From Magnetovibrio sp. (lineage in GTDB: Bacteria > Pseudomonadota > Alphaproteobacteria > Rhodospirillales > Magnetovibrionaceae): a stretch of 64,000 bases of DNA. The DNA is taken from assembly GCF_036568125.1 (NCBI RefSeq), contig NZ_DATCTF010000004.1:186001-250000 (forward strand), read 5' to 3'. Below the pieces are notes generated by a model. The model saw nothing but the letters and a program-made list of their open reading frames with translations. It was not told the DNA's origin and searched no databases. This document shows positions 58,781 through 64,000 of the stretch, piece by piece. The translations under genes were made by a program, and so were the position numbers. Positions within the stretch are counted from its first letter, which is position 1, and each line of letters starts with the position of its first letter.

Positions 58781-60247
58781 TTAAGCGTTCATGCGCTTGA
58801 TGGTGTTGGTGGTGCTATGCCCGTCGAGCAATTCGGCAAGCACCACCCGCCCGCCGAAACCGTGAACGATGTCCGCGCCGACCACCGTATCGATGGTGTA
58901 GTCGGCGCCCTTGACCAAAACATTGGGGCGCAAGGCTTCGATCAGGTTGATCGGGGTCTCGTCGGAAAACAGCACGATTAAGTCGACCGCGGCCAGCGCG
59001 CCCAGGACCGCGGCGCGCGCGGCTTCGGATTGCACCGGGCGGCTGTCGCCCTTGAGCCCACGCACGGAACTGTCGGAATTGAGCCCTACGACCAGACGGT
59101 CGCAAGCGGCGCGCGCTTGGCTGAGCAACGAAATGTGTCCGGGGTGCAAAAGGTCGAAACAGCCATTGGTGAAACCGACCTCAAGCCCTTGTTCGCGCCA
59201 TGCCGCGACTTTGGCGACGGCGCGTTCCAGATCCGAAAGTTTGGCTTCGGCGTTGCCCAAATCCTGGTGGTGCAAGGCGCGGGTCAGTTCGGCGGCGCTG
59301 ACCGTAGCGGTGCCCGCCTTGCCGACCACGATACCGGCGGCGGTGTTGGCCAGCGATGCGGCCACGTTTAAATCCGCACCACCCGCCAAGGCCAAGGCCA
59401 AGGTCGCCACAACGGTGTCGCCGGCACCGGAAACGTCGAACACTTCGCGCGCTTCGGCTTTCAGGTGCAACGGCGCGCGGTCTTTGATCACCAAGGTCAT
59501 GCCGTCTGCGCTGCGGGTCGCCAACACGCCGCCGACGCCGCAGGTTTCGATGAGGTGATGGCACGCCGCGACCACGTCGTCGTCGCTGTGCGCGGGCATG
59601 GCGGTCGCGTCCATCAATTCTTTTTTGTTGGGCGTGATGATATCGGCACCGCGATAGCGGCTGTAATCGCACCCCTTGGGATCGATGATGACCGGGATAT
59701 TTGCTTTGTGCGCTTGGGCGATCACCCCTTGGACCACGGTGTCGCTCAACACGCCTTTGCCGTAATCCGACAATACCACCGCGCCGATGCCCGGATCGGT
59801 GATGTGGGCGATGCGTTCAAGCACCGCAACCTGCGTCGCGGTGGACAGAGCATCGGTGCTTTCGACATCGGCGCGCATCAATTGCTGATTTGCGCCGACG
59901 AAACGGGTCTTCAAAGTGGTGCGGCGATCGCTGTCCGTCACCAGATCTGCGCGAATGGATTGCAGTTGCGCCAACAAGCGCGCGATTTCGTCACCGCCCT
60001 CGTCTTCGCCGGTTACGGCGACGAAGGTTCCGCCGCCGCCCAATGCGGCGACGTTGCTGGCGACGTTGCCCGCGCCGCCCAGCATCGTGGTTTCACGTTC
60101 CACGCGCAGCACGGGGATCGGTGCCTCGGGAGAAATGCGCTGCACGTCGCCCATGACGTATCGATCGAGCATGACGTCACCCACGCACAGGATGCGCGCG
60201 CCGTTCAATCGTTCGATCCAGTCCGCGAGATTGGACAATGTACTCAT
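58781..60247 (-). CDS. hldE: Bifunctional heptose-7-phosphate kinase / heptose-1-phosphate adenylyltransferase
   Basis: Two steps of ADP-heptose synthesis for the LPS core. The N-terminal PfkB-type kinase (about residues 1-320) shows MLGGAGNVASNVAALGG, DYGKGVLSD and the catalytic FDVSGAGDTVVATLALALAGG. The C-terminal nucleotidyltransferase (about residues 345-488) has VGFTNGCFDLLHPGHISLLSQA and VKGADYTIDTVVGAD. 488 residues is the normal fused size. It indicates a Gram-negative envelope with heptose-containing LPS. Confidence 0.97.
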   Translation of the reverse strand: MSTLSNLADWIERLNGARILCVGDVMLDRYVMGDVQRISPEAPIPVLRVERETTMLGGAGNVASNVAALGGGGTFVAVTGEDEGGDEIARLLAQLQSIRADLVTDSDRRTTLKTRFVGANQQLMRADVESTDALSTATQVAVLERIAHITDPGIGAVVLSDYGKGVLSDTVVQGVIAQAHKANIPVIIDPKGCDYSRYRGADIITPNKKELMDATAMPAHSDDDVVAACHHLIETCGVGGVLATRSADGMTLVIKDRAPLHLKAEAREVFDVSGAGDTVVATLALALAGGADLNVAASLANTAAGIVVGKAGTATVSAAELTRALHHQDLGNAEAKLSDLERAVAKVAAWREQGLEVGFTNGCFDLLHPGHISLLSQARAACDRLVVGLNSDSSVRGLKGDSRPVQSEAARAAVLGALAAVDLIVLFSDETPINLIEALRPNVLVKGADYTIDTVVGADIVHGFGGRVVLAELLDGHSTTNTIKRMNA

Positions 60248-60438: not shown

Positions 60439-60897
60439 ATGCTAAACGGAGAGAAGATTCTGAGGCAGTTTCGACTGGCCACGAGCATGGCAGTGATCAG
60501 CGGCATCTATTTGCTTGTAACCTTGTACTATAATCTTGATGTTTTCGAAGAGTTTGGCAGGGCATTTAGCGCATTCTTGCATGTGGTTGAACCTTACGAA
60601 GGCGACGAAGTGATCCCCGTGCTGGTGTTGCTCGGCTTCGGTTATGTGGGCGATTTGCTTCGTCAGCGTCGCCAAGTGCGTTACGAACAAGAGATCTCTG
60701 CACAGCGCCTTGCTGCGACGCAGGTCATGATGGGGTCCGTTCAAGACGTGGTGAACAATTTTTTGAACAATATGCAGTTGTTTCGGTTCGAGGCCGAACG
60801 CACCGGCGCCTTGGGCGGTGCAGACTTGCAGCATTTCGACGATTTGATCGCCCAAACGGCGCGAAAGCTCAAAGAGATAGAAGCCAAACAATCATGA
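60439..60897 (+). CDS. Small membrane protein with histidine-kinase-like helix, no kinase domain
   Basis: 152 residues. Two hydrophobic helices (about 13-35, ATSMAVISGIYLLVTLYY, and 55-75, VIPVLVLLGFGYVGDLL) flank a short loop. The C-terminal half is a long helical region with QVMMGSVQDVVNNFLNNMQLFRFEAE, which resembles the dimerisation helices of some sensor kinases, though the phosphoacceptor His is absent and no ATPase domain follows. I do not recognise a named family. It is divergent from hldE, and the region before it (60248-60438) has no obvious gene. Function is unknown. Confidence 0.7.
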   Translation: MLNGEKILRQFRLATSMAVISGIYLLVTLYYNLDVFEEFGRAFSAFLHVVEPYEGDEVIPVLVLLGFGYVGDLLRQRRQVRYEQEISAQRLAATQVMMGSVQDVVNNFLNNMQLFRFEAERTGALGGADLQHFDDLIAQTARKLKEIEAKQS

Positions 60898-60957: not shown

Positions 60958-61683
60958 CTATGTCGACAGAAACCGGCGTTCTTTCCCTTCCAAAACCAAC
61001 GCGGTGAGGGTCCCCGACGCCCACGCGCGGGTGTCGATGGCGATGCGGTTGTCCAAGACGTCGGGCACGTCGACCGGGGTGTGACCGTGCACCACCACGG
61101 CGCCAAAATTGCGCGTTGCGTTGAGAAAACGGGCGCGAATCCACAAAATATCCTCGGCGCGCTGGTGCTCCAAATCGACCCCAGGACGTACGCCCGCATG
61201 GGCGAACGCGTAATCGCCTTCGCGGTGCATCAGCGATAACTGCGCGATAAAACGCCGATGACGTTCCGGCACACGCGCTGCGGCGTCGCGGGCGGTCCAG
61301 TTCGCGCCGTAGCTTTTGAGCGTTTGTTCCCCGCCGCATCCCAGCCACATGCGGCCGTCGTCGCGCCCTTCGAGAAAGTGCTCCATCAGCAGCTCGTGGT
61401 TGCCTTTGAGAAAGCGCAGCTCAAATTTGTCGAACGGGGCGTTCCAGTGCAGGTTCGAGAGCCGCTCGATCACGCCTGCGCTATCCGGCCCGCGGTCGAC
61501 ATAATCGCCCAGCGTCACCAAAACCTTGCGCTGCGGAGCATCGGCGGCGTCTTCGGAAATGATGTCGAGCAAGCGATTGAGCAGGTCCAGGCGCCCGTGG
61601 ATGTCGCCAATGGCGTACACCCGCGTATCTTCGGGCACGCAGGGGGCTTGAGTGGTGAAATCGCGGCTCTGAATCTCGTTCAT
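60958..61683 (-). CDS. Metallophosphoesterase, protein-phosphatase (PPP) type
   Basis: Cytoplasmic dimetal phosphatase of the PPP/calcineurin-like group. Metal motifs in order are YAIGDIHGRLDLL (GDIHG), LVTLGDYVDRGPDSAG (GDxxDRG), FLKGNHELLMEH (GNHE), YAFAHAGVRPG and VVHGHTPVD. 241 residues resembles bacterial serine/threonine phosphatases (PrpA/PrpB, Stp). Substrate is unknown. The gene is divergent from the EAL-like gene, 94 bases away. Confidence 0.9.
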   Translation of the reverse strand: MNEIQSRDFTTQAPCVPEDTRVYAIGDIHGRLDLLNRLLDIISEDAADAPQRKVLVTLGDYVDRGPDSAGVIERLSNLHWNAPFDKFELRFLKGNHELLMEHFLEGRDDGRMWLGCGGEQTLKSYGANWTARDAAARVPERHRRFIAQLSLMHREGDYAFAHAGVRPGVDLEHQRAEDILWIRARFLNATRNFGAVVVHGHTPVDVPDVLDNRIAIDTRAWASGTLTALVLEGKERRFLST

Positions 61684-61777: not shown

Positions 61778-63082
61778 ATGTCAGAATCGGATTTTTTTGG
61801 AGGCCCAGCGTCGCTTATGGCGGATTATTCCGAGGCATTCAGCGCCGGACAAGAGCACAACCCGCCCAGCCAGGAGAAAAGGCTGTTGGATGTGCTCGGT
61901 CGCATGCGCAACAACATGGCAGGTGTGTTCGCCGTGCATTTGCACTTGTCCGAACTGCGCCCCAGTCACCGCCAGCCGCATTTTTTGCGCATGGTGGGTC
62001 GTTCGCTCGACAGTTTGGCCTCGAAGCAGGACGTCCAGGTGTTCAATTTCACCAACGCCGACGTGGCGCTGTTGTGCCGCAACACCCCAGTCGACGATGT
62101 CGATGACGCGGTGTTTCGGGTTCGCGCGCTGTTCAACGAAGACCCCTTGACCTTGACCGAGGACGGTTCCGCCGAGGACCGTTTTTCGACCTGGTACGAT
62201 CTCAGTCAGCCCAAGGACGTCAAGGATTTCGTTGACGCCGTGGCCGACGCGTTGGCGCACCGCGAAGAAGTCAAAAATCAGCAAGCCGAAAGTGTGTCCA
62301 CCGGGCGCGCGTCCAAGGTCATGACCGGCGAACCGTTGGTTCCGACGATGCTGCAAGGCATTGTGCAGAAGCTGTTGGAAGCGCGCGTCGGCGACCTGGT
62401 TCACCGCCAGCCCGCCGTGGTGGTGACGGCCGGGAAATCGCAACAGTTGGCGTTTCGCGAACACTTCGTCGCCATGGAAGAATTGCGTGCGCGCATTGCC
62501 GCCGACATCAATATTTTTTCCAGTCACTGGCTGTTTCAGTATTTGTCCGAAACCATCGATGCCCGGGTCCTGGAGGTTTTGGCGCGGCTGGATTACGTCA
62601 ACATGGACGTGCCGTTAAGCGTCAACCTCAACATTTCCACCATCATGACCCGGCCATTTCAGAACTTTCACGCCCTGATCGGCGAAAACACCCAAAACGT
62701 GATCGTCGAAATTCAAATCATCGACGTATTCGCCGACATGGGCGCTTACGCATTTGTGCGCGATTGGTTGCAGGATCACGGATACAAGGTCTTGATCGAC
62801 GGGCTCAACCCGCTGACCTTGCATTTTTTCGACCCGTCGCTTTTAGAAGCGGATTACATCAAGATCACGTGGGGACCCGAGGTGCGCGGCGGCGTCGGTC
62901 AGGAGCAGACCCGCAACATTCGCGCGGTGGTGTCGAACATGCACGAAGGCGGGGTGGTGCTGTCGCGGGTGGATTCGGAAGAGGGTGTAAGCTGGGGCCT
63001 CGATCTTGGCATCCGGTGCTTTCAGGGGCACTTTATCGACAAGGTTGTCGAGGCGATGGCGAGCAAGGGTTTGATCAAATGA
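61778..63082 (+). CDS. Degenerate GGDEF/EAL-like protein, first of a tandem pair
   Basis: 434 residues, no signal peptide. Residues 30-150 look like a decayed GGDEF-type fold (FAVHLHLSELRP, VQVFNFTNADVALLCRN where GGDEF would be). Residues 200-430 resemble an EAL fold: HRQPAVVV in place of YQPIV, WLFQYLSETIDARVLEVL, LSVNLNISTIMTRPFQNF (like VNLSxxxL), VLIDGLNPLTLHFF where DDFGTG would lie, ADYIKITW where KID would lie and CFQGHFID like the QGY end. Key metal/catalytic residues are largely gone, so it is probably not a phosphodiesterase. It may bind c-di-GMP or a protein partner. The downstream paralog starts 36 bases after its stop. Confidence 0.8.
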   Translation: MSESDFFGGPASLMADYSEAFSAGQEHNPPSQEKRLLDVLGRMRNNMAGVFAVHLHLSELRPSHRQPHFLRMVGRSLDSLASKQDVQVFNFTNADVALLCRNTPVDDVDDAVFRVRALFNEDPLTLTEDGSAEDRFSTWYDLSQPKDVKDFVDAVADALAHREEVKNQQAESVSTGRASKVMTGEPLVPTMLQGIVQKLLEARVGDLVHRQPAVVVTAGKSQQLAFREHFVAMEELRARIAADINIFSSHWLFQYLSETIDARVLEVLARLDYVNMDVPLSVNLNISTIMTRPFQNFHALIGENTQNVIVEIQIIDVFADMGAYAFVRDWLQDHGYKVLIDGLNPLTLHFFDPSLLEADYIKITWGPEVRGGVGQEQTRNIRAVVSNMHEGGVVLSRVDSEEGVSWGLDLGIRCFQGHFIDKVVEAMASKGLIK

Positions 63083-63118
63083 GCGCAGGGTTAACCATCG
63101 AGCGAGGAGCGTGCTGAC

Positions 63119-64000
63119 ATGGCTGTCCGGCCTTCATCCTCACCCACGCACATGCACCGCCGCACCCAGGAACAGTTGTTGCTGGAATACCTGCGCCGGC
63201 TGGAAAATCGCCGCGAAGGGCGCAAGGCGGTGCGCATCAACATTTCCAGCCTGATGCCCGCCAACCGCCGCGAACACCATATCCGCGCCGCCACCAACAG
63301 CTTCGAGGCGTTGGTCAGCGACTTGATGGGTCAACTTTTCGAACTGAAAAATCTCGACCTGTTTTTCGTCTACAAAGCCGAAGCCCACACCCGCGTCGAA
63401 GACACGGTGCAGAAGGTCAAGTTCCTGTTTTCCGACGATCCGCTGTTTGACGAAAAATCGCGCTCCGAAGCCGATTTCGTGACCTGGTACGACGTCGAAA
63501 CGGGCTACGACCAGTTGATCAAAATGGTCCGCGGCATGAGCGAGGACGGTGAAACCACCAAGCGCCCGGCAACGCGCTCAAACGTGCGTGCGGCGTTGAA
63601 GGCGCGCCAAGATCACGGCGAGCCGTTGTCGCCGGAAATTCTCGGCCGCGCGGTCAAGGCGTTGCAGCGCACCGACCTGACCAGTCTGGTGCGCCGCCAG
63701 TTTGTGTGCGGGGTGAGCAAGAAACTGGTGCCGGAACCGATTTTTTCGGAGCTCTATATCTCCATCATGGATCTGCGCGAAACCATGATGCCGGGCATCA
63801 ATCTGACCTCGAACCGGTGGCTGTTTCAATATCTCACCGAAAGCCTGGACAAGCGCGTGTTGTCATTGCTGTCGAAAACAGACCGCTTTTCGATCACCGG
63901 CGATATCAGCTTCAACGTCAATGTCTCGACCTTGATGAGCCCTGAGTTCATGGCCTTCGACGACGGCATTTCCGCCGCACGGCGCGGCTCGATGGTGTTG
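63119..64000 (+). CDS. Degenerate GGDEF/EAL-like paralog, cut by window end
   Basis: The frame is open from the ATG at 63119 (GAGGAG 10 bases upstream) to the window end, giving at least 294 residues. It is a paralog of the preceding gene: the first domain has VRINISSLMPANRREHHI, LKNLDLFFVYKAEAHT and FLFSDDP with TWYD, all matched in the first protein (FLFSDDP/LFNEDP, TWYD). The second domain has RRQFVCGV, WLFQYLTESLDKRVLSLL and ISFNVNVSTLMSPEFMAF. It lacks a GGDEF motif, and the EAL position reads ELY. The end of the EAL-like domain is outside the window, so late motifs cannot be judged. Co-transcription with its paralog is likely. Confidence 0.82.
   Translation, partial: MAVRPSSSPTHMHRRTQEQLLLEYLRRLENRREGRKAVRINISSLMPANRREHHIRAATNSFEALVSDLMGQLFELKNLDLFFVYKAEAHTRVEDTVQKVKFLFSDDPLFDEKSRSEADFVTWYDVETGYDQLIKMVRGMSEDGETTKRPATRSNVRAALKARQDHGEPLSPEILGRAVKALQRTDLTSLVRRQFVCGVSKKLVPEPIFSELYISIMDLRETMMPGINLTSNRWLFQYLTESLDKRVLSLLSKTDRFSITGDISFNVNVSTLMSPEFMAFDDGISAARRGSMVL

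Follow-up and report, generated by a model that had tools for sequence, protein, structure and literature searches.

The window analysed here, a stretch of 64,000 nucleotides at G000:C4:186001-250000 of a Magnetovibrio genome whose close relatives include Magnetovibrio blakemorei MV-1, ends at its right edge with two adjacent genes on the forward strand, referred to as A and B. Gene A (61778..63082, +) is an open reading frame for a protein of 434 amino acids, and gene B (63119..64000, +) starts 36 bases after it. The first 294 of the 428 residues of B lie in the window; the gene runs on for 405 bases to L002:6405, equivalent to window position 64405 (L002 positions are window positions minus 58000), and its complete copy was read from the window's own genome (L002:5119-6405). 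Each protein combines a degenerate GGDEF-like domain with an EAL-like domain, as assigned from the reading frames, Pfam EAL matches (for B, on the complete protein) and Foldseek, and no further domains were found in either. In A, the N-terminal GGDEF-like domain (approximately residues 30-175; 61865..62302, +) was delimited by profile comparison with GGDEF domains, and the EAL-like domain (approximately residues 186-434; 62333..63079, +) by the Pfam match and the conservation of pocket residues. In B, the N-terminal domain (approximately residues 15-145; 63161..63553, +) was recognized by its homology to that of A and by its fold, and the EAL-like domain, which begins at about residue 165 (63611..64000, + within the window), by its conserved pocket residues. 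Sequence comparison identifies A and B as paralogs (32% identity over 382 amino acids, E 7e-70), which bears out the preliminary description of two adjacent tandem genes, the second incomplete in the window, sharing the motifs that it quoted.

The C-terminal halves of both proteins exceed the curated Pfam cut-off for EAL (36.1 bits for A and 39.6 bits for B vs 31.3; PF00563), profile comparison of this domain with EAL gave an E-value of 5.5e-10, and the predicted models of A and B adopt the EAL TIM-barrel fold, matching many EAL structures with a Foldseek probability of 1.00. Pfam, NCBIfam and PHROGs hold no dedicated family for A or B beyond generic EAL, in keeping with the earlier remark that the pair could not be assigned to a described family. 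PDB sequence searches with A alone and with an A profile returned no matches, and the B profile alone reached EAL structures, including the EAL domain of PA0861. The AlphaFold2 models have pLDDT values of 84.0 (A) and 82.6 (B) and pTM values of 0.59 and 0.58, so that the relative orientation of their domains is uncertain. At full length, the best Foldseek match of A was MorA (E 2.9e-14; LapD, 1.9e-12) and that of B was the PAS-GGDEF-EAL structure of PA0861 (E 9.8e-13; LapD, 4.4e-12). Dual-domain GGDEF-EAL structures (MorA, PA0861, LapD, PA0575) aligned over about 420-460 columns with E-values of 1e-14 to 1e-10, whereas EAL-only structures gave weaker matches (E about 1e-8 to 1e-9), which indicates that the N-terminal domain contributes to the fold match. 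Whole-chain TM-scores between the models and GGDEF-EAL structures reach only about 0.3-0.45; such low values would follow if the domains of A and B were oriented differently from those of the reference structures.

Neither protein matched PF00990 in the Pfam search, as would be required of a diguanylate cyclase, and the GGDEF motif is replaced by N-x-D (in A, N93-x-D95 aligns with the motif). When the profile of the 107-sequence family alignment was compared with the 24 GGDEF domains of the same genome, the N-terminal domain scored 25.7 (E 9e-4, collinear over 136 columns), vs 18.0 for the reversed profile and at most 17.3 for 40 column shuffles; the N-terminal domain of B is homologous to that of A (hhalign score 252). 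With the predicted models taken into account, the N-terminal domain is best read as a remote, degenerate GGDEF relative, for which sequence support alone is weak. The GGDEF-EAL layout and the loss of the GGDEF motif noted in the preliminary description are thus confirmed by full-length Foldseek matches, profile comparison and domain searches; the lack of a fold match, which it had named as grounds for abandoning the idea, was not observed.

The EAL pocket was mapped on PA0861 and on EAL domains of the same genome, and conservation was counted in 107 sequences (37 A, 37 B and 33 single-copy relatives). The equivalents of RocR residues Q161, E175, N233, E265, D295, K316 and Q372 are essentially invariant, the assignments of Q161, E175 and R179 having been made by strand topology and spacing. 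In A these seven residues are Q211, E228, N283, E311, D341, K362 and Q416; in B, Q194, E211 and N266 lie in the window and the remaining ones beyond it. K316 and Q372 presumably have roles in the EAL pocket of RocR. Q161 and R179 serve in substrate binding, and E175, N233, E265, D295, D296 and E352 in metal coordination (PMC7911125). Four of the six metal-coordinating positions, namely the ligands of the first metal, are therefore kept and essentially invariant, and with the equivalents of Q161, K316 and Q372 also retained, the earlier view that most EAL metal and catalytic residues had been lost does not hold. The D296 position is mostly Gly and the E352 position Ala, Cys or Ser in nearly all of the 107 sequences, and the E355 position is mostly Asp. 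At the R179 position, four positions downstream of the Glu in the EAL motif, nearly all sequences have Ser or Ala, and the Arg expected of a FimX/LapD-type receptor is missing. In TBD1265, the substitution E703A, at the E352-equivalent residue, abolishes cleavage, and the E355 equivalent is not essential (PMC12943098). With D296 and E352 replaced, the complete catalytic set of an EAL phosphodiesterase is not present, and since R179 is replaced as well, cleavage of c-di-GMP by A and B is predicted to be lost. Six of the nine catalytic positions are invariant, far above the domain-wide invariance rate (p 2e-6 for A, 1e-4 for B), so the pocket is not decaying and, to judge from this pattern, is under selection. 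Nearly all relatives also keep an Arg where the AEGVE motif has its Gly (R380 of B).

The pair is widely conserved in the order Rhodospirillales. In a first set of 60 genomes, the window's own included, 55 had a match and 51 of these carried two adjoining matches, so that the conserved pair suggested earlier as a check does exist in other members of the order; among the four exceptions, G028, G030 and G050 are contig-end or fragment cases and the copies of G045 are unlinked. Among 225 genomes of the order, the B profile matched 201 (188 of 212 if only good genomes are counted), and among 387 genomes sampled from the class it matched 107; as this profile also finds A-type proteins and distant relatives, these counts describe the family and not the pair. 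In a midpoint-rooted tree of 107 proteins, the deep branches of which are poorly supported, the A clade has a support of 0.998. Seven tandem pairs come from genomes outside the order, and each of them has one protein in the A clade and the other in the B clade; single-copy relatives fall mostly on the B side. The simplest reading of this tree would be that the A-B duplication is older than the order. Outside the order, B-type genes also occur alone, and B thus does not always need A. Plasmid records gave distant Azospirillum matches only (at most 27% identity, unannotated or labelled 'hypothetical'). Some genomes of the order have a further distant relative away from the pair (about 23-29% identity, frames of about 420-470 amino acids; G043:C7:181771-182421, G018:C44:20655-21311, G031:C454:23983-25044 and G045:C6:449495-450148, loci L072-L075), in some cases with a stop within the matched stretch. 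The window's genome itself holds a degenerate EAL-like gene at G000:C19:83712-84134 (L132), with a 392-amino-acid frame scoring 26.2 bits, below the Pfam cut-off.

Upstream of A, and divergent from it, lie a calcineurin-like metallophosphoesterase (60958..61683, -; PF00149, 55.1 bits) and an HldE-type ADP-heptose synthesis enzyme (58781..60247, -; NCBIfam rfaE_dom_I and rfaE_dom_II, both above cut-off), which synteny identifies as recurrent neighbours. In the order, the pair is often divergent to the metallophosphoesterase and a block comprising a nucleotide-sugar epimerase/dehydratase (SDR), an AsnB-type amidotransferase, a two-part oxidoreductase, GmhA and HldE; it is in relatives that GmhA and the epimerase/dehydratase join HldE. 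Downstream of B, an ABC-2 exporter pair is found in about half of the loci, followed by cobalamin genes, and in the window's genome the exporter starts 4 bases after B. Both the phosphatase and a membrane protein had been pointed out as nearby genes: the former is indeed a recurrent neighbour, but the latter, a small predicted membrane protein (60439-60897) with no family match, is poorly conserved even among near relatives and, beyond the window's genome, matched in one listed locus only, and it was rejected as a part of the module. One clade from outside the order has the single-copy relative next to polysaccharide export genes of the Wza, Wzc and WcaJ types. RegB/RegA-type genes are close by in 10 of 40 loci outside the order; this redox pair (ActS/ActR, PrrB/PrrA) lies near the single-copy relative in L133, L134, L135, L141, L142 and L146-L150, and an exporter of the same ABC-2 type also occurs in some of these loci. 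In other genomes from outside the order, about 2 Mb in size (L157, L159, L162), the pair adjoins an AIM24-GYF protein and lies near what appears, as judged by eye, to be an obgE-proB-proA-nadD block. The gene neighbours point weakly to envelope or surface polysaccharide as a possible target; within the order the neighbourhood is inherited vertically and hence is not independent evidence.

Genomes without the genes are depleted in GGDEF domains. The median number of GGDEF domains is 2 in 20 genomes of the order without a match vs 10 in 19 kin with the genes (p 1e-4), in a comparison where genomes were picked by kinship and some of those 'lacking' the genes are incomplete drafts. The depletion persists per Mb (p 3e-4) and in 12 genus-matched pairs (p 0.002), with genome size, which also differs between the two sets (p 0.0014), as a partial confounder, and all five zero-GGDEF genomes are without the genes. 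At least one genome is a counterexample, G169, which has 35 GGDEF domains and no pair. The depletion points to c-di-GMP. A main link to flagella is unsupported: FliG is absent in 6 of 20 genomes without the pair vs 1 of 19 with it (p 0.09).

On these grounds, A and B are very probably dead GGDEF-EAL proteins, which would have arisen by an ancient duplication and of which neither would make or cleave c-di-GMP. Adjacent pairing kept across most of the order, together with a mostly intact pocket, suggests a two-part signal receptor. In the scheme that we propose, the EAL-like pocket would still bind a metal, c-di-GMP (or a related nucleotide) or both, and would relay a change of conformation to a partner or to the GGDEF-like domain, A and B would act as a heteromer, and the output may be the control of surface-polysaccharide synthesis or export. 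The confidence that these steps deserve is uneven. That the pocket still binds a nucleotide is slightly more likely than not. The heteromeric regulatory module envisaged in the preliminary description is plausible given two ancient clades kept in tandem, and we consider the chances that A and B do form a heteromer to be about even. Polysaccharide as the target is doubtful. Taken as a whole, a dead GGDEF-EAL pair acting as a joint c-di-GMP receptor or scaffold in the manner of FimX and LapD has, in our estimation, an equal chance of being right or wrong. The most far-reaching version, in which two dead GGDEF-EAL proteins would form a nearly obligate heterodimer throughout the order, bind c-di-GMP in a single-metal pocket and control alphaproteobacterial envelope polysaccharide, seems unlikely.

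The loss of the R179 substrate contact in both proteins speaks against the receptor reading and could indicate instead that the pocket now takes a different ligand and the proteins no longer belong to c-di-GMP signalling, serving for instance as an adaptor that responds to redox state or to a metabolite and is linked to the RegB/RegA or cobalamin genes. The RegB/RegA-type genes near single-copy relatives in the loci outside the order, and the cobalamin genes that adjoin the pair in many genomes, are consistent with such a shift, but the GGDEF depletion of genomes without the pair and the retention of the polar pocket residues make it improbable. An unusual but active phosphodiesterase is another candidate, in which single-metal or shared-site chemistry would operate and either the Arg at the AEGVE Gly or a partner would supply the missing group. 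The invariance of the four first-metal ligands and of the K316 and Q372 equivalents, and the maintenance of R380 (B), seem beyond the needs of a mere binding site; however, all three groups have other residues in place of D296 and E352, R179 is gone, and TBD1265 cannot do without its E352 equivalent (PMC12943098), and we regard activity as very unlikely.

If catalysis is lost, as predicted, the two proteins might also be pure scaffolds, with the conserved residues being structural and the function residing in protein contacts alone. Degenerate GGDEF and EAL domains acting as adaptors are known, and the degenerate EAL adaptor YcgF of E. coli presumably works by protein contacts only. For A and B this explanation is not a likely one, as the invariant residues coincide with the pocket beyond expectation (the probabilities given above for each protein) and structural need hardly explains why E, N, E, D, K and Q have all been spared.

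The receptor proposed here is not new in kind, since FimX and LapD are well-known examples of receptors with degenerate GGDEF-EAL domains (PMC7288161). FimX of Xanthomonas and Pseudomonas resembles A and B in being a non-catalytic c-di-GMP receptor with both domains degenerate, and its EAL domain matches both models (Foldseek E about 1e-8 to 1e-9); unlike A and B, it is not part of a tandem pair, and an Arg taken to correspond to R179 persists in its pocket (R481 in X. citri; PMC7288161). A and B have Ser or Ala at this position and retain the first-metal ligands. LapD, likewise a degenerate GGDEF-EAL receptor and a full-length structural match to both models, is a transmembrane protein, whereas A and B stand in tandem without a further recognizable domain. 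The GGDEF-EAL enzymes PA0861/RbdA and MorA are the best structural matches, but A and B carry other residues at the D296, E352 and GGDEF positions. PelD, which has a degenerate GGDEF domain and acts as a c-di-GMP receptor in the synthesis of Pel polysaccharide (PMC7288161), offers a working analogy only, as a non-cyclase GGDEF protein tied to polysaccharide genes; it is a membrane protein without an EAL domain. A literature search, with subscription journals mostly outside its reach, found no description of the A-B pair. What is distinct about it is that two ancient genes standing in tandem across the order are combined with an unusual pocket, in which the first-metal ligands are kept, whereas the second Asp is lost along with the essential Glu and the contact made by the Arg.

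If the proposed function is correct, one of the c-di-GMP-type proteins most widely retained in a large alphaproteobacterial order would be a paired receptor and not an enzyme, and counts of GGDEF/EAL proteins based on domain hits would either take A and B for enzymes or miss them.
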